Source of the DNA: Owenia fusiformis
Lineage: Eukaryota > Annelida > Polychaeta > Sabellida > Oweniidae
DNA length: 64,000 nucleotides
Direction: 5' to 3'
NCBI GenBank assembly: GCA_903813345.2
Contig: CAIIXF020000007.1
Span: 19,207,564 to 19,271,563, forward strand
Shown: positions 13,550 to 53,200 of the stretch, one piece after another
How positions within the stretch are numbered: the stretch's first letter is position 1
Layout of the letters: the number at the start of each line of letters is the position of its first letter
Program-made: the position numbers and the translations under genes
Notes under the pieces: model-generated
What the model saw: only the letters and a program-made list of their open reading frames with translations
The model's database searches: none
Told to the model about the DNA's origin: nothing

Positions 13550-13860
13550 ATTATTACTTGGATTTCCTTATATTGAGAAATTGTACTACTCATTTTAAGT
13601 CAAAAATTACTTAAATAATCTTGAACTACTGAATAATTTTTAAGTAATTCATTTATGGTGAATTTACTAATGCAAGGAGAAAAATTGAAATACTTACTGT
13701 AGTAATTGTAATACTCATTTACATAATTAAGCAATTAAAAAACTCAAAATGACAATATAAGTTAAACCTAAGTAAAATGAAGTAAAACTAAGTATTTAAC
13801 TTTAAGTAATTTTTATACTTGGGAAATACTTGGGAAATACTCAAGTAATTCATTTTTAAT
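13550..13860. repeat. Low-complexity AAGTAATT/AATTACTT-rich tract
   Basis: About 300 bp are dominated by variants of AAGTAATT and its complement (for example TTTTAAGTAATTCATTT at about 13637 and TAAGTAATTTTTATACT at about 13804). It lies directly before the truncated 5' end of the LINE. Confidence 0.5.
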
Positions 13861-13861
13861 T

Positions 13862-16233
13862 GAATCTCATGAACCCACACATGATTTTCTGAACCAGTTT
13901 TATTCATTCAACCATGTCCCACTAATATATAGGCCGACAAGAATTACTGACAAGACTGCAACTCTTATAGATAATATTTTTACTAATGTCCCTAATATTG
14001 ATGGATGTGGTATCATCATGGAGGACATTTCTGATCACTTTCCAATCTATTCCATTTCACACTATGATACTACCAAATCTAAAAAAACATTAAGCAGTTA
14101 TCGTAATTTCAATGACTCTAATAAGCAATTATTTCTTGAGAAACTCTCAAATGTCGACTGGACCCCTTGCTATAAAAGTCAAGATGTTAACATAGCATTT
14201 AATATCTTCATTAACTTGTTAATGGAACAATATGATTCTTCATTTCCACTCAAATCCAAATTTATCAAGGTTAATCATGATCCTAATAGACCCTGGTTGA
14301 CTTCTGGCATCTTAACTTCTGCCAAAACTAAAAATAAGCTATATACCAAATATTTGAAAAATCCCTGTTGCAAAACAGGAAAAGCTTACAAGTCCTTCAA
14401 CCATAAACTTAAGCACATAATTAAATACTCAAAACGTACACATTATCAAAATAAGTTTGCCGAAGTAAGTGGTAACATTAAAAAGTCTTGGTCTATCATT
14501 AATGAACTACTTGGAAAAAACAAAAAAGCTGCATTGCCATCTAAATTCACTATAAATGGAAAGGAAACAACAGATCATGAAATCATTTCCAATGGATTTA
14601 ATAATTTTTTTACCAATATTGGTAAAAATCTAGCCAAGGAGATTCCAAAATCCAAAAAATGCTTTAATGAATACCTAGCAAGAGCTCAAAAAGTTCAATC
14701 ATCTATTTATCTCAAAAAGACCTCAAAAACTGAGCTTGAATTAGAAATGTGTCTTCTAAAATCTTCCTCGCCTGGACCTGATGGGATTCTACCATCACTT
14801 ATTAAGTCTGCAAGACAGTTTTTAATTGATCCACTCTTGTATATATTTAACTTATCTTTTAAATCTGGTATTTTCCCAGACGCCCTCAAATTGGCCAAAG
14901 TAACACCTGTATTTAAAAAAGGTGTCACTACAAATCCTTCGAACTATAGACCAATTTCAGTTTTATCTGTATTTTCTAAATTGTTAGAAAAGCCCATGCA
15001 CGCCAAACTCACTGGTTTTTTAGAACGTTTTGAAATTATTTTTACTTATCAATTTGGATTTCAGAAATTCAACTCTACCTACATGGCCATTTTATATTTC
15101 ATTGAACAAATTCGAAAATCAACTGATTTGGGGAAAACGAGCATTGGCATAACATTAGATTTTTCCAAGGCCTTTGACACAATTAATCATGACATTTTGA
15201 TACAAAAACTTGAATATTATGGCATCAGAGGAATAGCTAAGTCCTGGTTTGAAAGTTATTTAAAAGACCGCAAACAATATGTCACCATTAACAATTATGA
15301 ATCTAAACAATCATCATTAAATTGTGGTGTTCCGCAGGGCTCGGTACTTGGACCACTATTATTTATTCTTTACATAAATGATCTGCCTTTTGTTGCCCCT
15401 AATCTAAAATTTATTATGTTTGCTGATGACACCAATCTTCTTGATAGTGATTATGATTTAAATGAACTTATGACTAGAACTAATGCAAACTTGAATTCAA
15501 TAGATGACTGGATAAAAGCAAACAAACTTTCACTTAATATTGGCAAAACCAATGCTATTCTATTTGGACCCCAAAAAATCAAACAAATCTGAATCTTAAA
15601 ATACGCAATGAGAACATAAATTTCCGGGAAAAAATTGACTTTCTTGGAATTATTATTGATAAAAACTTGAAATTTAAAGAGCACATAAAATCTGTTGAAA
15701 CAAAGATTTCTCGCGTCATTGGTTCTCTTTATCACATTAAACATCTACTTCAAATAGACAGTTTCAAAACAATTTACTACTCATTGATACACTCTCAATT
15801 AAATTATTGCAACATAATCTGGGGTAACACATTTAAATCATTTTATGATCGTCTACATAAACTGCAGAAACAATTCTTAAGGCTAGCTTTAAATAAGGAT
15901 AGACTTTCTCACTCCGCTCCCCTATTTAAAGATCTTAGACTATTAAGTATTTTTGATGTCAACAGATATTGTACTGGTCAGTTCATGTACAAAATCTTTA
16001 ATAAGCACCCCAGTCTTCCAAAAAATCTATTTCAAGACTTGTTTGATATCAACATTAATATTCATCATCATTACACAAGACAATTGCATTATTTTCATAT
16101 CCCTAAATGCTCTAAACTTTCCCTTCGCTATCTGGGTCCTTATCTTTGGAATGCTCTACCACATGATATTAAAAAATGCTCCACTCTAAATATTTTCAAA
16201 TCTTCATATAAAAAACTACTCATCTATCGATAA
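13862..16233 (+). pseudogene. LINE polyprotein: endonuclease end + reverse transcriptase, frameshifted
   Basis: This is the retrotransposon protein that nicks target DNA and copies its RNA into it. The frame is open from about 13862. The end of an apurinic-type endonuclease is visible, including the SDHFPI motif right after the ATG at 14018. Reverse transcriptase motifs follow, counted from that ATG: SNYRPISVLSVFSKLLEK near residue 305, LDFSKAFDTINHD with the first catalytic Asp near 381, GVPQGSVLGPLLF, then FADD near 468-471. A stop at 15590-15592 ends the first frame. A 1-nt shift in an A6 run just before it restores homology in another frame through YLHKLQ-type C-terminal sequence to the stop at 16233. 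Catalytic residues are intact but the frame is broken and the N-terminus missing, so the copy is dead unless the shift is a sequencing error. Confidence 0.85.
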
Positions 16234-19589: not shown

Positions 19590-21480
19590 GAACTCCTAGA
19601 CAATTATAGGGGTATCACAATAAATTCAAATGTATATAAACTTTTTACATCTCTTATAGAGAAGAATATTCTGCACTTTTTTTGAAGATAATGATATTCT
19701 TGGCGACCTTCAAGGTGCATTTCGTGAAAACCTGAGATTAGAAAATCACATTTTTGCTCTTAAGGGTTTATGTAGTATGAGAAAGGACAAGAACCTTAAA
19801 ACATATTTAGCATTTCTTGACATATCTAAAGCGTTTGACGTTGTAAACAGAGATAAATTGTTCATCAAGTTATGGGAAAAAGGTGTGCAAGGCAAAGTTT
19901 GGCGTCTTTTACGTGCGCTTTATGATAGGGTATTGAATAAGATAATCTTTGGTCTGAATTCCAGTGAATGGTTCGAGTGCAGCCCAACTAACTCTTTAAA
20001 GCAGGGATGCTGTCTCTCTCCAACTTTAACTGATTGCCTGAAGGAAGAAAGACTTGGCATCCCTTTTGCAGATAAAAATGTCCCAGCCCTTTTGTTTGCT
20101 GACGATATAGTCTTAATCGCTGAATCCGAAACCCAGTTAAATAGAATGTTAAAAGTAGCAGACAATTTTGCATTAAAATGGGGCTTTAACTTTAGTTCGA
20201 AAAAGTCCAAGGTTATGGTCATTGGCAAAAGGATAGATAGGCATAAAGTATGGATCCTTGGTAATTTGGAACTTTCAGAAGTACAAAACTACAAATATCT
20301 AGGTATTTATTTTGATAGAACACTTAAAAATTCTTACCATGTGAATAGTATTCTGGCAACAAAAGCTAAGAAAATGAACGGTATGTGTGTTGCAACCTTA
20401 ACAAAGCATTGCGACATCAAAAGAGTACATTTTGGTACCACAATGTATAATTCAATGTATTTACCTGCTTTATTAAATGGCTGCCCTATATTTTTACTTA
20501 ATGCCTCTATGCAAGATAAGTTCAAATCCATGCAATATAATATGGCAAGATCTGTACTACAATTGACCTGCCGTCCTGCTAGGGAAGCTATTCTAGGTGA
20601 CTTAGGTTGGAGAAACATAACCGAAGTTATTGAAAAACGTCAAATTGACTATTTTATTTATCTGAAAAGTAGGTTAAAGCCAGGTTCTCTACATCAACGT
20701 ATTTTTAACACAATGTATGAGAAGTTTTCCATTTCACATAATGACAAACGTTCATTGCCTTATTTTTCAAATATCAATAACATTTTGATCAAACATGGGT
20801 TAGACAGAGCCATTCATGTTGATGACACGGACTGGTATCAGGGATATCTTAAAATATCGAATGAAAGAAGCAAAAGCAGTTTTCTAGACACCATTGCAGA
20901 CAAATCCTCTCTTGTTCTGTACAGCTCCTTAAAAACAAATTGTTTTCAAGAAAACTACCTTAAGACTGATTTTGACTTTTATGGTCAGAAACTGAAATTC
21001 AAGGCAAGATCAGGGTGTTTTGGTCTGAATACTGACAAGGAGCGATGGGGCCAAGGTAATGGGTTATGCAATTTATGTGATACGAATGTCAAGGACTCTA
21101 TCCAGCACCGTATGTTTGTATGTCCTCATTTTAACAATGAAAGAACTAACTTCTTTCTGAACGTGATAAACTCCTGTAATGAACAACTGTCATCTAGCCT
21201 TATTTCTGCTAATATTCCAATTAAAATATGCTTGACCATGGGTGATAAAGCTTTCATTGACTGGGGAAATGAACAAGGTCATATTTTAGATCAATGTGTA
21301 AAGAAATATCTGAAAGCAATTTATATTCCCTATAATAAGGATTGATGTATTTTAGTGACATTATGTATTTTAATTTTAACTGTAATTGTATGCATGTTTG
21401 TATGTGGATGCACCACATTTTCAATGTGTGTGCCACTGTTTTAAAAGTGATTCCAATAAATAAATAAAATAAAAAATACA
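19590..21480 (+). mobile_element. 5'-truncated non-LTR retrotransposon (LINE copy 2)
   Basis: Coding sequence starts abruptly in the reverse transcriptase fingers (LLDNYRGITINSNVYKLF from about 19593). After the stop at 21345, a short 3' region of about 130 bp ends in AATAAATAAAATAAAAAATA, a LINE-like tail. The protein type differs from LINE copy 1. Confidence 0.8.
19593..21345 (+). pseudogene. LINE reverse transcriptase with internal deletion and frameshift
   Basis: Reverse transcriptase and C-terminal domain of a non-LTR element. The first part (19593 to about 19680) is in one frame; a T-run at about 19674-19683 carries a 1-nt shift into the main open frame, which has its first ATG at 19777 (522 codons). 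From that ATG: FLDISKAFD with catalytic Asp near residue 15, QGCCLSPTL near 77, FADD near 107-110, a YLG motif, then a long C-terminal part with C-x2-C-x9-H-x4-C near 430-450, seen in some LINE proteins. Between CLSPTL and TDCLKEERLGI the usual FxxFINDL-like block is absent, which looks like an in-frame deletion of about nine residues in the palm. Such a protein would probably be inactive. Clade not assigned. Confidence 0.8.
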
Positions 21481-27277: not shown

Positions 27278-27639
27278 TCACTTATAGTAATAGCAAATGT
27301 ACAGATCCACATTTACGCCAGATGTAGACAAATATGGTGTATTACCACCTGTATCAACCAGTGAATTTGCCGCAATCAAATAGTCCTCACAATCAAAATG
27401 AAAAAGTTCCAGTATTGATGTCATTCCCATTACAGCTTGACACGCACCTGTTGTCTTTGGGAACATGTAGAAGGGTTGATCAGTGGGGAGGTGTATAGGG
27501 GTACTGACAGAGTCATCATCACGACAGCAGAAATGGATCTTGGTGTTATGGTCGTATATCCCGTATGGCAGTTCACCACTAAACGAGTTGGAGTTGAAAA
27601 TATTTTCATCGTCCCACTTGAGCCAACCGTCTTCAAAAC
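27278..27639 (-). CDS. Gene A last exon: ApeC domain, second half
   Basis: Acceptor CTTGTAG, phase 1 entry, 120 codons to TGA at 27280-27278. Visible ApeC hallmarks: [19 protein letters not shown], then [41 protein letters not shown] and a final [10 protein letters not shown]. The FCCR and CQ.V.GM signatures and the closing C.YY are typical of the family, and the domain reaches its normal end, so the C-terminus is complete. Confidence 0.85.
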
Positions 27640-30600
27640 CTACAAGTAGCTTAGCTAGATGAGATTAAAATTGTTACGCGTATCCAAAATTTTAGCAACA
27701 AGTGGATCACGGATTATAAAGCTTGGCGATTTAACAAATGGGGAAAACGTTTCAAACATAAGTAGGAATGGAGATTACGATTACAAAACATTTGCAAGAT
27801 TACTTTTGTCGATAAGAAAGTTTACCAATAAACCAATAAATTTTACAAATAAAATGAATAAGCGCATTGTACCATACGGTAAAATCTGTTGGGTGCTCTA
27901 CGCTTTGTTGAAATGATATGCTTCTAAGATACGATATCTATTTGAAAAGGACATACATTGTGTGACAAAAATTCGGTAACCATTTATTGAAATGCAAAGA
28001 AATGCATTTTTTCCTTAATTACTGAATTAACAAAATAACTTGTAAATTGTATTTTTGTCGAATAAAATGATAGTTTTCCTCTTTACCTGTTGGACACGCC
28101 TGTCCCGATGCTCTATATAGGCAGTAGCTACCAGTAGGCCACGTATTAGGAACACAGATCGCGGCATAGTCTGTAGTTTTCATACAGAAATGAAGACGAA
28201 TGTCGTCCTTTCCGTAAGTCAAAGGAAAATGAATCCCGGTTGTCCAAGAGTTTGAAGAAAAGGTATTTTCGGTATCAAAGTACCGGTCCCCTGTTGACCA
28301 AACGAAACCTTCACTTCCGATTGTTGGACAACCGTCCAGTGGTATGGATTCATTCAGAGGGCCAACACGAGGAAGACCATAGAAGCCAGACGGCCAAAAT
28401 GCTGAAAGAATCAAGGGAGTTTACAGGCACATCTTCACACGCTCGCTCTTCACTGCAACCGACAGGAGCCGAGAGAACGAATATGTGATAGACATTGGTA
28501 CGAATTTGATCAAGAAAATGACTAAATTAACTTAATCAATAAGGTTCAGCATACCAGACTCCATGCAAAAGTATGCCCTGGTTCAATTACCGACCCATAA
28601 GGTCGAGCCATCTAATCTAGCACACACCATGGGCTTACATACACAAATCGGGCAGAGTTCAAAGAAAAACTATATATAGGACAATGAACCTCTAGGAGAG
28701 TCTTATATAGGCCTAGAGAGTCTAATTCACGCATTAAGGTTAAACTGTTTCTTTTATTAAAACTATTCCTGAGTACTGAGATTCGGAATGTTCGAACATG
28801 AAATGGTTCTTACGTAAGCAGCATGTCAAACCATCAGCATGGAGATACTTCTCCGGTGGACAACTACAGACGTACGAGCCAAAACTGTTGGTACAAGTAT
28901 CACTGCACCCTCCGTTGCTTGTAAGGCATTCATCAATGTCTGTTTACGCAGTGAAATCATAAAAGTACAAACTGGTACATTTTTATACTAAGCTTATCAT
29001 TCATTATGTCGTAAGCTTATAAGGACACTGCCCTCTTCAAATCTTTGAAGTAACCCTAAACACATTGGTTGAATATAAAATTACTCGAGTGTACAAAATG
29101 AAGAAAAATAAACACTGTTCCACAACTAGTAACTTTGATGGCTCAACTTCCGAAGTTCGATTTCGGTAAGATTTTTTGTTTTGTCGATTTAAACCTACTT
29201 ATAAGTCAATTCGCAGTTTATAATTTGGCTCAACGTTAGGCGATATATCTAGGCTTTGAAAAATGCCTTCGGGTTTGAATTTATCCTTTAAACGAAGCAG
29301 TCATTCATTTAGCCACTCGCCTTTGTTACATTGACGTAAGACCATGATATTACCAATGTTACTTTGACGTAGACACTTGGTTACTTTGACGGAAAATAAA
29401 TTAAGGTAGATTGATCTGTGCAATGCTGATACCGACCGGTTAATAAACAATAGTATCAAAAGTTGTAAACATTTTCCAGTCATTTAAGACTTCCAAAACG
29501 AAATTGCACAACTAGTAGTTAAACCATTTTAACAATGTCTGGCCAACTATTAATATGTCGTTTCTAGCTCCACACCTTGGCAAGACATATATATGAGAAT
29601 AACAAAATCATCTTTGAGTCTATGATACTGAACAACATATTTTAGTTGTATTTGTGATACTTTGATTACATATATATAATAATAAAAAGTTTTTTGGATG
29701 CCTCTTTTTTGCAGATGATACAGCATCATCTGGTTTGTCGGACGATAAAGAGATATTTTTCATTATTGCAATATATAAGAGACAGAGCTGGATTTTTCCT
29801 AATAGTCATACTCCGTCGTGATAACGAATTATTTGTTGGCAATGCCATTAAGAATTAACTGTTTAATTTTAAACGATGTGAGTGTTGAAAAACCAAAACC
29901 AAAAATGATTGTACAAAATCGCTTTGATGCCCGGGATGGGCATCAAAGTTTCTCTACTCAGTTGAATGTTCATAATAAGTAAGCATCACTTTAGTGGGCC
30001 CAGAAATTTTTTAGGGCCCCAAAATTTTCAATTTCACAATAGGGCATCTGTACCACTGAACCATTTTGATATTTCGTTAGTCTAAGTGCCATTTTGATAC
30101 GAATACATTCAAAAACATCACAAAATGCATTTCATTCATGAACCACGGAGTCGTGCGTTTCATGCACCACTAACACATGACGTTAACATGAATAAATGTT
30201 TCTAATGTAATTCATTAATAAATTATATTGGCTCATTATATCAGCTCATTGGTGTTTTTGTATAATTGATAATAAACAGTGTTGTTGTTTTTCAATCAAA
30301 AGCTAGGAATTCAAACCGTGAGTTTCTCGCTTCTTGGTGATGCTAAATGTATTCTAAGAAATCATTTTAAATTTCAAGACATAGGGTCACTGGTTGCCAA
30401 GACTTCCTAGAATACGCAATGGCGTATGTGAATACAATTGCCATGAACATTCGTCAATGTAACACATGTAAAACTGATACGTGAAAGTAACATAAGCTAA
30501 AAATAATGAAATCGTCGAAGTAACATTGGTCTTACGTCAATGTAACAAAAGCCAGTGATTAAATGTATGCATTCGTTTAAACGGTAAACGTTAAACTTAA

Positions 30601-33600: not shown

Positions 33601-36600
33601 ATTTATATTTTCATAGTTAGTTTAACATGAATAATAGATCCATGAGAACAATATTCTTTTTTTTTAAATTGATGGGTTTACTGTGAATTCAATAAATTAC
33701 AATTTGCAAGGGGTAAGTATACTGTATTAGCTAGCTAGTTTTATGTTAGGCCAGGGTAATTAAATTAGTTGTTTCTCTTTCTTCTATTTTTCAAAATTGA
33801 TACGGGAATGACGGTTTTTATTTATTTTACCTTTTTTGTTTATCTAAAATGCTGATGAGGGACGGGATGATTTTTTTCTTTAAAATAACTGTAAAAACAA
33901 ATAACTAATTTAGAAGGAAATAAACTGAGTTTATGTTGAATGTATATGTTGAATTTAGCCTACTTTACTGGTATATTTGATCATATATCAGTACCACGAT
34001 ATTGTCAATTATCCTGATCCATAAAAAGTTAAGAAAAAGTGTTTCACACGCCATGGATGCACGCGAGGTACGGTGTTTTTTTCTCAGAAATGGCAGAAAA
34101 AGGGTGGAGGGGGATTGGGCCACACGCGGGCAAGAATGAGAAACAACTAATTTAATTACCCTAACCTTAGTTCATCCAGTAGTACGTTTTTACTGCAAAG
34201 TAGTGTTTTTATATGCAGCTTAATAGCATAAAATATGTTGAATGAAGCATATGGTGTGGATTAGTCGTGTGACACACAAACTGACCAATACATGAGGGTA
34301 TTAGCTACTTTTCACATAAACCAAAGGAGGACAGTGTTTTTATTTCAACTTGGAGCTTACCTCCACACGACTGATCATGTGACCATGGTGGTGGTCCCCT
34401 TTAAGGGTGATCAAAATTAAGCTGAAAACAATGGATCGCAAGAGTTTTCCCTGTGGGAAAATAGCATGGGAAATATTGTTTTCCACTTTATCCCAAAGGA
34501 ATGCTTTTTTTCTTTCCAGAGATGTGTAAAGGGCTGAAAACCAGGACAACATTTCAGAAAAAATGTTGATGGGCTGTTTGAACCTTCCCTGTCTCAAAGT
34601 CAAAATTTTTTCATCATTTCCTTGAGTGCTTGTCCTGGAGTGTAATGCATTGCCCTAACATATGCACCTGTTTAAGTTCTCAGAAAATAGCCGAAATCCA
34701 ACATTTGACTGTTTGAAATATGTTGCGATACTTTCCGTGCTCCTTCCAGAACATAAACTCCTCAAAATTTTTACAAAAACTCTCCCATCGTTTCGCTGTG
34801 CCATCAGTTTCGTGTCTCTTGAGAGGACGATATTTTCGTTTAATCAATTATTTGGAAGAATATACAAGAACTTATACCTACCACATACTGGAGCAGAGCC
34901 TATTGGAATCTGAAACCAAAATAAACAAGGGTCGCTTTATGTGCTCATTATAAAATTTTGCGAATGACATTTTATGTCACCACCAAAAGTGGTGACATCA
35001 TATTCTTATGGTCTTCGTTCTCTATGACGGCGTTTGGCGTCTGTAATTATGGTTGGCCTATTAGTATAAAGAAAACATGCGTTGTTTACGGGTGTGTAGG
35101 CGTTAATTACGCTCGTGTAGATGTAAAATTACGCCCGTGCTGACGAAAAATTACGCCTGTGTAGGCGTAAATTACGCCCGTGAAGAAGTAAATTCTACGG
35201 GCGTTCAGAATACATTTACAGGCGTGAACTTACGGCGTTAAAATTATTAATTACGGGCGTTAGACTGTTATTTTACACGCGCTGAGAAACATCTTCACGC
35301 CCGTGGAGTTTATTTTTAGCGCCGTAAATTATGAACCAATCAGAACCTTACTTACATGATGATTTAATGCATCCTTGCTAAAAGAGCAACTCCGAGATAC
35401 TTGCGCTAGTATATAGTAAACAACAATCAGAAGCCTGCTTACATTTTAGTGTGTTGCATTGAGGCCCTTAAATATTCGTTCAAGATTGAACTAGATTTAA
35501 CCAAAGAAGTATTCATTTTTTAGAGCAAATTATATTAAAAGGCAAATTGAAGAGACATGTACTGTGTTGGCAGTTATCAACACTCATTGTAGAAACGACA
35601 AAATTGCAGAGTATTTTGAAAAGGTATACATGTTTGGTTTCTAAATACGATGATTTTTGTATAATTCTCCAATCTAGGCGTCGGCTTCAGAGGTAGGCTA
35701 GGTAGGGACTTATTAAGCTCACACGCATTGCAGCTTACAGTCTCCATTATACAGTCAGATCGCTAATGTATCTCTCTAAAGGATGTGTCCAGATACTAGA
35801 ATTATATTATCTGATCAACTGCAAATTGACTCTAGACTAAAGCTATATCCTGCAGATCTGGCATTTTTTGAAAATGTACTGAAAATGTCAAATGAGCCTA
35901 TATACCTAGTATACCTAGCCAACATATGTTCAAATTTGGTGTTAGGGAGATGTGTACTTTTTGGAATCTTTATGCAGCCGTCTTTATATGTCACATGTTA
36001 TTTCCAGGAATACATAACTCATTTAATATACGATGTAAATCTTTCACATTTGCACAAATAGTGCACCGAGATACCCAGAAAAGAAATAATATTTCATATG
36101 CCTCCAATTACAACAGTTGTTCCTGGCACAATCATGAGTATGTTATTAACTTGCACAAGGATCTTGGAGTTGTACTTTTAGCTATAATGCATCGTATCAT
36201 CATGTAAGCAAGATGCTGATTGGTTCATAATTCACGGCGCTAAAATGAACTCGACGGGCGTGAAGATGTTTCTCAGCGCGTGTAAAATAACAGTCTTAAC
36301 GCCCGTAATTAATAATCTTAACGCCGTAAGTTCACGCCTGTAAATGTATTCTGAACGCCCGTAGAATTTACTTCTTCACGGGCGTAATTTACGCCTACAC
36401 AGGCGTAATTTTTCGTCAGCACGGGCGTAATTTTACATCTACACGAGCGTAATTAACGCCTACACACCCGTAAACAACGCATGCATTCTTTATACTAATA
36501 GGCCAACCATATGTAATGGCCATTGACGTCTGTAAAAAATTCTTACAACTTCTAATAACTTAACAAATACTGTTTAGACTGACTTCAAATCTTTCAAACC

Positions 36601-47250: not shown

Positions 47251-50200
47251 CTATTTTCGATGAATCAAAAAATTAAGATGTAAATGCATATTTTCCTAGT
47301 TTTAATTATTATGTATGATATAATTGTATTCTTAAATTAGGTCAAACTAGTAACTGTTCCCCAAACATGCTTTTCTGAGATTCTAATGATCATTAATCTA
47401 AAAACTTTAAGAACCATATATTAGAGGCCCCCACATGTGCTTCCTATCAGATCCTATCTAAAAAAAATCAAATTTTCACACCAAAACAGACTTTGTTTTT
47501 TTACTCAATCAAGAAAACAATTAGTTTTGATATGTTCTTCACTTTTTGAATACAAAAATGAGGGAAAAGCATTCATCATTTTACACCAGTAGTAGTTTGC
47601 TTGAACCTTTCATTGTATTAATGGATATTGATGTCATGTCTACATGTAGCTAATTTCTTTAATTAACATTTCTATAAGATGAACACCATCTCATTTTTGT
47701 ATCAATAGCTTCCATTTTAATATTAACTTCATAAAAAAGTAGAGTAAAATATTACTTTCGCAGTTTAGTCCCTGATAATACTCTAAGCACTGGCACTCGT
47801 AGCTGTTAATGTAATCAACGCACGTCCCATTGTTGAAGCATGGCTCTGAGTAACATTCATTGATTTCTGGAAAAATAAGAAACATTTAGTAGTAGTTTTA
47901 GGTTTAAAATGTATCAAAATATTCTTGTCTAAATATATTTTTAAAATATGTAGCTATACTTTACAGGTTAATTTCTAAAATTCAGTTTATTGTTGAACTT
48001 TCACCATCAAATGTATCTAATCCTCTAATAGATAATATTGATTAATTTAAAGACACAAGATATACATGCAGCCTCAACAGTACTTATGGGCGGGGTCAAA
48101 ATATCGATGTTCATATGGAGACGAAAGTAATTTCGTTTGGACAACAACCCCCCCACCCCCCCTCTAGACGAAAGCTTAGGTCACTTCAAAAAAACATTGA
48201 TTTATGAGAGGCATAATCGTATCCTATTTGCCGGGTTATTATTACGGTGAATTAACACACGTTCGCAATTTAACTGCATTGAACTCTTCAAAAGGAGGAG
48301 GGAAAAGTACGGAATTTATTTGAAAAATGATCGAATTATCGTCTTTATCTACCAATATTTTGGACCTATCACACAAAAAAGCTCACAAACTATTGAAAAC
48401 AAGCCTTTTTATCAGAACATAGAGCCAGAAAAAGTGGGTAAGTCCAATTATTTTTTGTATATCAGATCCGAATTATCGATGTTTTTTTGGTCAACGAAAG
48501 TGCCCAAAAACCCCCTCCCCCCCTCGCGAAAGTACTTTCGTCTCCATATGAACATTGATATTTTGACCCCGCCCCTTATATATATTTTTTCCACTGTTAA
48601 AATCTATGACATCATGATCATTAAGACATCATGACAAACCATCTCCCTCCCTCTTTTGAGGTGACACCTTGCTCAATGACAGACAGAAATAGCCTATACT
48701 ATGCTAGAATGCCAATGTTTATGAGCTAGTGTAAAATCATCTCACCCCACAACAGCAAAAGATAAAAATTGGTGACATTATTGAGAGTTTTCACCTACCA
48801 GTTTCACAGAGTGTTCCAACAAATCCTAGAGGGCACTTGCACTTAAAGCTGTTCACCTGATCCTGGCACTCAGCACCATTCTTACAGGGGTTAGAGGTAC
48901 ACTCATTGGTTTCTGGAAACAATTTCAATTACATGGGTTTATATAGGAAGAAAACTGTATGGAACAATGTGAATAATGTTTTAGTTGTACAGATGAAATA
49001 ATATGTTTTATAATTGAAAGAGGAATATTTGACAATCTAATATTTCTGTATATTTTTGACAAAAACGACCCATGGGTGCATATAAAAAATATAAACATTA
49101 CGACTCATGAAACTCAACTGCATCAGCATAAGCATGAAAGACCGTGATTTGTGAAATTGTAACAATAGCATTTGAGAAACTACATCCTGGTTGTTTCTTA
49201 CCTTCGTCACAATTGAGCCCCTCATATCCAGGTTCACAGGTGCATCTATACCTGTTCAGGTAATCTGTACAGTTGCCATTAATGCAGGGATTAGACCAAC
49301 ACTCATTGACATCAGTCTCACAGTACGTCCCTGTATATCCAGTCCCACAATTGCAGCTGTATGAGTTGACAAGGTCGTTACAAAGTGCTCCATTCTGACA
49401 GGGGAATGATGCACACTCATTCACATCTGCAAGAAATGATACAAGTAGAGTACAGGGAGGTGTATGAGTCTGCGATACTACAGCATGGAGTACAGTAAGA
49501 TGGGGACTCAAAAGCAAAACATGAAAGTGATGCACACTCATTAAGGGATTGATGCAAGGACTTGAAGCAAGAGCTTTGTAACTTATTAATAATACAAATA
49601 GTTCACATACAGAAATACCTTATGATGTACAATGTGAGAAAATCAGGAAGTTCATTTCTGTCGATTTAGAGAGGAAATGAGGAAACAGTCATGATAACTC
49701 AGTGGCTACATGTACTTTACTCTGCAAATACCAAGTTTTCTGAATATATTGTCCTGCTCCTACTTTTACTATTTTGTGAGTTTGTGCATTTGTTTATCCT
49801 CTGTAAGCCTTGCCCAATGTAATGTATTTATCTTGAATTATAATAAATCATAAATCTCCTACCTTCTCCACAGGTAGGTCCAGCATATCCAGGTGGGCAT
49901 TCACATGTAAAGCTGTCCACATCATCAATACATGTTCCTCCATTGGCACACGCTCCTTCAACACAATCCTCTGAGTCTAAAACAAAGAAACATTGATTTG
50001 TTCATTTATTTTCATCAATAAATTCTGTATAAGCTATTAGGACTCATAATAATATAAATAGGGCAATCCTTGACTAACATAACATATCTACACATATATG
50101 TGTATGTACGAAAGCTTTGTCCTTTCAAGGTTTCCTTGATCAATAAATGAGTCATGCCAAAGGGGTCTTATCACAGATTTTTTCAACATTTTTCATTTTT

Positions 50201-53200
50201 CTTAACAGCAGTTTTCCTATGGCAAGGCTCAAATGTCAATTACACTTTGTCCATAGACAAAGAAATATTTCAATGTTTTCACTTCATTTTACAATAATAT
50301 TATTCCACCACTACACTAACTACACTTACTACGTATACTACGCTACTACGCTGGGGTGGGGGTCAGGCTAGGAGCATACTACACTTACTACACTTACTAC
50401 ATACGAGGGTATATCATAAAGTTCTCATAATATCTCTCTCATTTTTTATTTTTCAATATATTCTATTGAAATTTTCAGGAAATCTGCAGTATAGAACACT
50501 GTATTAATCTATCAAAAAATATTTGATATAACAGAAAAATTAAATAAGTAATGGTTGCCATAGTAACCGGAAATCAAGGCACCCGGGGCAAATAAAAATA
50601 ATTGAGAAAATGAGCTTAAATTAACCATGTTTACATACATAAGAAACTCTCATAAATTATCAAACACATCAAAATGTTATGTTAAATATGTTGTTAAATG
50701 GTTTTACTATAAAATAAATTGATCATGTGAATTATGTGATGTCTTAGGGGATGCTTACATGCTTCATTAGATGTGATACCAGACTCTGGGAATCAAAGCT
50801 TAATGATCAGAAATGACAGAGTAAGATAATGCATAGATGCAGAGATCATCAGAAAAATAAAATTCATACTGACAAAAAGTTTGGTTAATTTCGAAAAGTC
50901 CTTTGATCATACTAAAGATGATCTAAAACAAATATATTGCAAAGTTATCAACAAAATTACCCCCCTATTTGTGGTCTAAACATATTTAAGATAAACTAAA
51001 GGGGGAAAATCGACTTTCCTTGGAATATTTGACAAAACAGTTGTAGTGCCTAACAACACTTCTAATGATGCATTACAATCATCCATTATGAGATCACACA
51101 GTTCACATGACCATTATAATTGTTCAAAACAGTCAAGAACACATGGCATTTAACAATTTGATGTGTTTCATAGCTTATTTAATAGCTTATTATTCATTTA
51201 AACATGGTTAGTTGGGGCTATTCTTGCACAATTTTTTATTTGCCCCGGGTGCCTTGATTTCGGGTTACTATGGCAACCATTTCTTAAATAATATTTCTGC
51301 TGTGCCAAATATTTTTTGATAGATTAATACAGCATTCTTTACTACACATTCTGTGAAAAATTCATCAGAATATATTGAAAAATAAAAAAATTAGAGAGAT
51401 ATTATGAGAACTTTATGATATACCCTCGTATTCCATTCTATTGTGATTGATGTATTACCTCTAGATCAAAATATTTCTTTATTTATAATGATCATGCAAT
51501 ATTTAAAGGTAAAACTAAATGTTTAAATTGATAAATTCTTCAAATCATCATGCAGACAAAAGATTATGGAGGAATTTGTAGTGTGATCATCTGGAATGAA
51601 AGCCAGGATGTCCAGTTTTCTCGATGATAATGAAAAAAACTTTACAAACTCAAATTCCTTTCACAATTTTATAGAAGCAATACCATCCAAGATTCAATAT
51701 ATTAAACAGATGTCTAGAAAATGGATATATGTCTACAAAAATTTAAAAAAATCAAAAACAATCAAAATTCTTAATGAATATCAGATTGATGCATCTCTAT
51801 GTGGCAAACAAAATACACCTTTAATTCAAAAGTTGCTTCTATTTGTATAAGCAAATGCATAACTTTTGTAAATAGCACCAAGAAAACGGGAAACGGCTCC
51901 CATTTTTTGTTAATAAACTCCTTCCATTTTTTCATCTACTCATGTAAATAATCATCAGTTCAACATGCAAACTTCAAAAGAGAAATCCACTTTCTATACA
52001 ATGTATCATATCAGAGTAAACAATTGTTTTTTGGAACTGATCATGTGATAAAAAATTATCTACCAAATATTGTGTATTCAAGTTTATACAAAAAGTGCAT
52101 ATATGTATATCTTGCTGCAAAAACTCATCTAGAAAACAATAACAATCCCTCTGAGCATTGAGCTCTGACTTACTGATAGCACAATTGGTTCCTTCATACC
52201 CTGAGTCACAACTACATGTGAAGCTATTGAGAGCTCTAAGGTTATCAATACATGTTCCATGGAAAGAACATGTGTCCTCAAAGCAGTCAACAGTGCCTGG
52301 TGAAGCATGGTTTAAGTAATACATTGTATTAATTTAATAAACAGAGTCACAACTACATGTTAAGCTATTGAGAGCTCTAAGGTTATCAATGCATGTTCCA
52401 TGAAAAGAACATGTGTCCTCAAAGCATGGTTTTAGTAATACATTGTATCAATTTAATAAACAGAGTCACAACTACATGTGAAGCTATTGAGAGCTCTAAG
52501 GTTATCAATACATGCTCCATGGAAAGAACACGTGTTGTATGTGAATAAATTTTAATTAAAAAAAAACAAAAAAAACATGTGAAGCTATTGAGAGCTCTAA
52601 GGTTATCAATACATGCTCCATGGAAAGAACACGTGTCCTCAAAGCAGTCAACAGTGCCTGGTGAAGCATGGTTTAAGTAATACATTGTATCAATTTAATA
52701 AACAGAGTCACAACTACATGTTAAGCTATTGGGAGCTCTAAGGTTATCAATGCATGTTCCATGAAAAGAACACGTGTCCTCAAAGCAGTCAACAGTGCCT
52801 GGTGAAGCATGGTTTTAGTAATACATTGTATCAATTTAATAAACAGAGTCACAACTACATGTTAAGCTATTGGGAGCTCTAAGGTTATCAATGCATGTTC
52901 CATGAAAAGAACACGTGTCCTCAAAGCAGTCAACAGTGCCTGGTGAAGCATGGTTTTAGTAATACATTGTATCAATTTAATATCAAAATTGTATTTGTAG
53001 AATGTATACTGAGTTATGAAATGAAATGTTGTGTTTATAATAAAAATAGATCATCATGCATGAAGAAGTGTTTTACAATTTTTTCCAAAGTGATGGATTA
53101 TTCATTCATTAGATGTGAATAGAGACTTATTGTGATTAACCTGTACACATAGAAAGTGAGACGATTGTGACAGTAATTATTAATAACTTATAAACATAAG

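Follow-up and report, generated by a model that had tools for sequence, protein, structure and literature searches.

IS3EU families of DNA transposons always have TA..TA ends and usually make 6-bp target-site duplications (TSDs) (PMC10045372), and fungal IS3EU elements combine TAYGG..CCRTA ends with 6-bp TSDs (PMC12730594). Long, repetitive terminal inverted repeats (TIRs) are described from other superfamilies, among them Tm1, with TSDs of 8–10 bp, mostly 9 bp (PMC3169594), and Galileo, with TSDs of 7, rarely 8 bp (PMC4168063), whose TIRs hold several binding sites for the THAP domain of its transposase (PMC3688188). We analyzed a window of 64,000 nucleotides on contig C7 of the Owenia fusiformis genome and searched the whole genome (498 Mb, about twelve chromosome-size contigs) for relatives of a foldback-like element that lies within it. 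We consider it probable that this element is a young, non-autonomous cut-and-paste DNA transposon of the IS3EU type that arose from a clan of two-ended elements by terminal conversion and was then amplified.

Structure, copies, and insertion of the element

The whole element, a non-autonomous IS3EU-type candidate, spans 1464 bp (35048-36511), and its unique, non-coding centre of 706 bp (35425-36130) sets its orientation, which is forward in the window; the ORFs of the centre (68–103 aa) gave no significant Pfam match. The same six letters, TGTAAT, flank it at 35042-35047 and 36512-36517, and two inverted arms of ~370 bp occupy 35048-35411 on the forward strand and 36149-36511 on the reverse strand, all as originally predicted. 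The prediction that the outer 330 bp of the arms are near-identical holds as far as arm position 257, with 4 mismatches, and fails beyond it: mismatches number 17 over the outer 330 bp and 24 over 364 bp, and identity past position 257 is about 75–80%. GC content is 41% in the arms vs 33% in the rest of the window, and the observed/expected CpG ratio is 1.78 vs 0.58.

Genome searches placed one arm at 40 loci or more and the centre at no fewer than 40, and the 24-bp terminus of the element, here called type A, occurs 98 times at up to 3 mismatches, 89 of them exact, while the reversed 24-bp pattern, used as a control, has no genomic occurrence. Pairing of termini yielded 39 A/A elements, mostly 1.28–1.47 kb long. 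The sequence is therefore multi-copy rather than single-copy, and dozens of copies share the same boundaries and 6-bp TSDs, which bears out the original reading of a mobile, foldback-like element.

When ends and flanks were aligned, the 6-bp duplication was exact in 21 of 42 distinct insertions, against 0.01 expected by chance. The remaining insertions had 7-bp (2), 5-bp (2), or once-mismatched 6-bp duplications (5), or no clear TSD (12, many of them nested or damaged copies). The TSD consensus is weak (G-A/T-rich-C). Five insertions lie inside another copy of the family (L012, L019, L060, L063, and L076, with TSDs CGGAGT, GTAAAC, TGTGTA, GTTAAT, and GAATTC, respectively) and served for the empty-site check in place of alleles: joining their flanks minus one TSD restored uninterrupted alignment to other copies over 62–75 bp at 95–100% identity in all five. 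L076 consists of three nested levels, each with its own 6-bp TSD. Thus, the element inserts as a unit and makes 6-bp TSDs. Among about 50 copies, five self-insertions were verified; as the clan makes up, by our estimate, well under 0.1% of the genome, this suggests that sister copies attract insertions. One copy, L008, lacks a direct TSD and has instead a perfect 12-bp inverted flank (ACCCCTGTTTTA / TAAAACAGGGGT, at 1489-1500 and 2956-2967); it adjoins another, solo terminus ~400 bp away.

The family is young, because 16 full copies diverge from their majority sequence by 0.2–0.7% (about 0.5%) and mutation at CpG sites (0.66%) is hardly faster than elsewhere (0.50%), so that CpG decay as a signal of age or methylation is absent from these copies. 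The low divergence also agrees with the recent insertion that had been proposed. Three copies with unlike flanks share one insert, which has CACTCCC ends and a TA duplication and occupies an identical site in the centre, and copies carrying this passenger therefore kept transposing. There are also short derivatives that consist of arm sequence only, of 144 bp (L067, 531-674), 400 bp (L066, 530-929), and 248 bp (L074, 750-997), the last with a TSD containing one mismatch.

Elsewhere in the window, remnants of non-LTR-type reverse transcriptases lie at 13781-16233, where a first frame runs on in a second, overlapping one, and at 19660-21345 (RVT_1, E 7.5e-32 and 1.8e-22). On the reverse strand, two exons at 27278-28420 jointly cover an apextrin C-terminal (ApeC) domain (E 2.2e-31 and 2.8e-19), and EGF-domain exons at 49098-49619 and 51974-52333 are probably part of a larger gene.

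Two-ended relatives, mosaic arms, and the word array

In the flanks of some copies we found other arms with the same internal array and different tips. These define three further terminus types, B (TATGGTTTGCCAACCTACCCTATG..., 44 occurrences in the genome), C (TATGGTGAGCCAACC..., 10), and D (TATGGTTGGCTTACCCGCCC..., 38), and the ends TATGG..CCATA are found in type A and in most B, C, and D termini. Types A and D are similar, as are C and B, so that the two ends of the clan fall into the classes A/D and B/C. Termini pair as AA (39), BD (14), AC (3), CD (2), DD (2), BB (1), and AB (1), so that 39 symmetric A/A elements stand against about 20 hetero-ended ones, and non-A members of the clan typically have a class A/D terminus at one end and a class B/C terminus at the other. 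Hetero-ended elements have themselves inserted with target-site duplications, namely GATAAC (C/D), CGGAGT (C/A, with a known empty site), and CATCG (A/C). The longest B/D elements measure 5.1 kb (C3:5208622-5213757), 4.4 kb (C11:30378604-30382990), and 7.2 kb (C8:29844001-29851159). Three sister elements with the same termini (L063, 672-3474; L064, 609-3172; L073, 1356-4520) have interiors of 2–2.5 kb that are strongly strand-asymmetric (G/T vs A/C), full of GGTTGTG-like words, and devoid of a transposase ORF.

The left arm of the window copy, of end class A/D, is ~99% identical between copies and begins with an exact type-A terminus (35048-35071, forward). The right arm is a mosaic, in which left-arm sequence runs from the tip to about position 258 and is followed by ancestral right-arm sequence of the B/C class; its type-A terminus (36488-36511, reverse) was transferred from the left end, and in relatives without the conversion this place is taken by type C or B. 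The same holds for type-A right arms generally, whose tips match the left arm and whose inner parts match the C-type right arm. At 72 diagnostic sites, all 29 right arms compared were single-switch mosaics, isolated single-site departures aside, with the switch at arm position 36-66 in 8 copies and at 251-259 in 21. In the latter, long-tract copies, 53 diagnostic sites in a row carry the left-arm state and those further in the right-arm state. The window copy belongs to this group, with a conversion tract at 36254-36511 on the reverse strand, and the switch interval 251-259 is itself a ACGCCCGT word.

Such words form an array in each arm. At no more than one mismatch, ACGGGCGT/ACGCCCGT words occur 9 times per arm, 5 of them exact, compared with 0.4 and 0.02 expected from dinucleotide shuffles, and the other 62.5 kb of the window contain no exact word. 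The words noted originally are therefore real and far beyond chance, and their spacing is tighter than the 20–35 bp first given. From arm position 41 inwards the spacings are 21, 22, 22, 21, 23, 21, 35, and 44 bp: a phased array at 35088-35225 on the forward strand (starts at 35088, 35109, 35131, 35153, 35174, 35197, and 35218; spacing 21–23 bp) is followed by two further words at 35253 and 35297 (35253-35304), and a word scan located the mirror-image array of the right arm at 36334-36471 on the reverse strand. The layout is kept in the arms of other subfamilies, with 3 to 7 successive ACGCCCGT-oriented units, the number differing by whole units of 21–22 bp; clan members share TATGG ends together with a subterminal ACGCCCGT/ACGGGCGT array on a 21–22 bp pitch. 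As a DNA strand, the left array folds better than shuffled sequences (z -4.9), as expected from inverted words, and we draw no function from this.

Competing explanations for the arms, words, and superfamily

The original prediction offered ongoing conversion between the arms as one source of their identity, and conversion did happen earlier in the history of the family, leaving tracts of two lengths. If conversion or foldback pairing still acted inside each copy, partner arms should resemble each other most; however, the nearest relatives of left arms are other left arms and those of right arms other right arms, never the partner in the same copy. We saw no private switch point in the 29 right arms and no two arms of one copy sharing private mutations, and we regard maintenance within copies as very unlikely. 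The outer part of the right arm consists of left-arm sequence that ends at one of two inherited switch points, and both forms were then amplified. Because the switch points are shared and no arm is closest to its own partner, we attribute arm identity to inheritance from two ancestral overwritings that began at the tip; by these sequence comparisons, a two-ended transposon became symmetric through two ancestral terminal conversions before it was amplified. Gene conversion or template switching would have replaced the right end, for instance while the gap left by excision was being repaired, and the repeated words may have offered the homology at which copying switched back. The words themselves had been suggested to bind a transposase or a host factor. 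Since the pitch equals two helical turns, the words lie on one face of the DNA; they form a helically phased (21–22 bp) array, most simply read as one of probable transposase-binding sites, for which the THAP-binding sites in the long, repetitive TIRs of Galileo (PMC3688188) are a precedent. A run of such sites on one helix face would account for the pitch, for words diverging more slowly, and for unit numbers that change in whole steps, and perhaps also for how often sister arms receive insertions. It is possible, though in our judgment the lesser prospect, that the words instead bind host factors, as in a silencer or enhancer array, or are a neutral tandem repeat that slippage has spread, as whole-unit changes in number and the high CpG content of the arms would also allow. 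Against this, elements of four terminus types have the arrays in their arms, and divergence in the words is about half of that in the spacers: 7–10% vs 17–23% in five of six comparisons of diverged arms and 28% vs 37% in the sixth (L064 left arm). These values come from repeats that can exchange units and from words chosen for their match to the consensus.

The superfamily can be weighed in the same way. Elements of the hAT superfamily usually end in YARNG, and subterminal repeat arrays are common among them. A non-autonomous hAT6 element would agree with the arrays and with the 6-bp TSD found here, and hAT families with 6-bp TSDs exist (PMC12730594), but all four terminus types have a T in TATGG where YARNG expects R, and we consider this origin quite unlikely. 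We also find it unlikely that the element is a true Foldback/Mutator-type (MULE-F, NOF, or Tm1-like) or P-superfamily (Galileo-like) element. Long TIRs made of short internal repeats in variable number are what such elements have and what we observe, and the several THAP-domain binding sites in the long TIRs of Galileo (PMC3688188) offer a parallel to the words; however, the TSD here is 6 bp, compared with 8–10 bp, mostly 9 bp, in Tm1, about 9 bp for Foldback/Mutator elements (FB, NOF, Tm1) overall, and 7–8 bp in Galileo, where 7 bp is the rule, and TATGG..CCATA fits IS3EU. The IS3EU assignment, which we base on ends and TSD alone, is therefore the one we favor: the ends conform to TA..TA (TAYGG..CCRTA), 6-bp TSDs are exact in 21 of 42 insertions, five with known empty sites, and the ~370-bp arms exceed the 30 bp reported for TIRs of fungal families. 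The family, for which the original prediction had no name, can accordingly be named, provisionally, as IS3EU type.

An element of this type would be moved in trans by a DDE transposase. Longer copies carrying a transposase had been anticipated; none was found, and the two 8-kb copies (L061, 8.4 kb; L062, 8.1 kb) carry inserts without a detected transposase. Neither these copies nor the 2.6–3.2-kb sister elements L063, L064, and L073 revealed one, as judged by ORF size and reading, with Pfam scans covering part of the ORFs. The rve_3 and IS481-transposase models match many integrase-like frames across the genome, and among the best-scored candidates listed, whose positions were compared by hand, no match lies between two of the A–D termini. 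About ten near-equal frames of 349–367 aa match positions 77-277 of the IS481-transposase model (E ~1e-20), including those at C1:18454727, C1:13247754, C5:32970305, C7:37510727, and C9:8136028. They are unlike the retroelement frames of 1300+ aa and are candidate IS3EU/Ginger-type transposases; an A/A copy (C7:37498413-37500730) is located ~10 kb from one of them.

Significance and comparison with known systems

Foldback-like arms recur in unrelated transposon superfamilies, and the instructive part of this family is the visible route from a two-ended to a symmetric element. The intermediates coexist in one genome, namely two-ended relatives without conversion and forms with a short or a long tract, and the direction, tract length, and switch points of conversion can be read directly from them. 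IS3EU, a thinly described superfamily, also gains a candidate end-recognition array. More speculatively, and with some doubt on our part, the phased array may serve both as a transposase platform and as the junction at which one end is copied onto the other. Symmetric elements would then arise stepwise from asymmetric ones and outcompete them; if true, Foldback architecture would have a general route of origin across unrelated superfamilies.

Among described systems, the element is like IS3EU in its TA..TA ends (TAYGG..CCRTA), 6-bp TSD, and TIRs over 30 bp, and differs in its ~370-bp arms with a 21-bp phased word array, its lack of a transposase gene, and the two different ends of its relatives; the IS3EU literature searched did not describe arms of this kind. 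It shares with Galileo (P superfamily, Drosophila) long, foldback-like TIRs with internal repeats, which in Galileo bind the THAP domain at several sites. Galileo belongs to a different superfamily with a 7-bp TSD, however, and the few sites known from it are widely separated (~70, ~570, and ~710 bp), with no array on a 21-bp pitch. Like the Tm1 Mutator/Foldback family of Meloidogyne, which includes MITE-like forms, the element has composite TIRs in which the short internal repeats vary in number and the terminal motifs are asymmetric, whereas Tm1 has a 9-bp TSD, a repeat unit of ~14 bp, and its own Mutator-type transposase. Finally, it resembles MITEs in being short, gene-less, and bounded by TIRs and TSDs, with forms of 144–400 bp in the clan, but its arms are much longer than those of MITEs and are structured.
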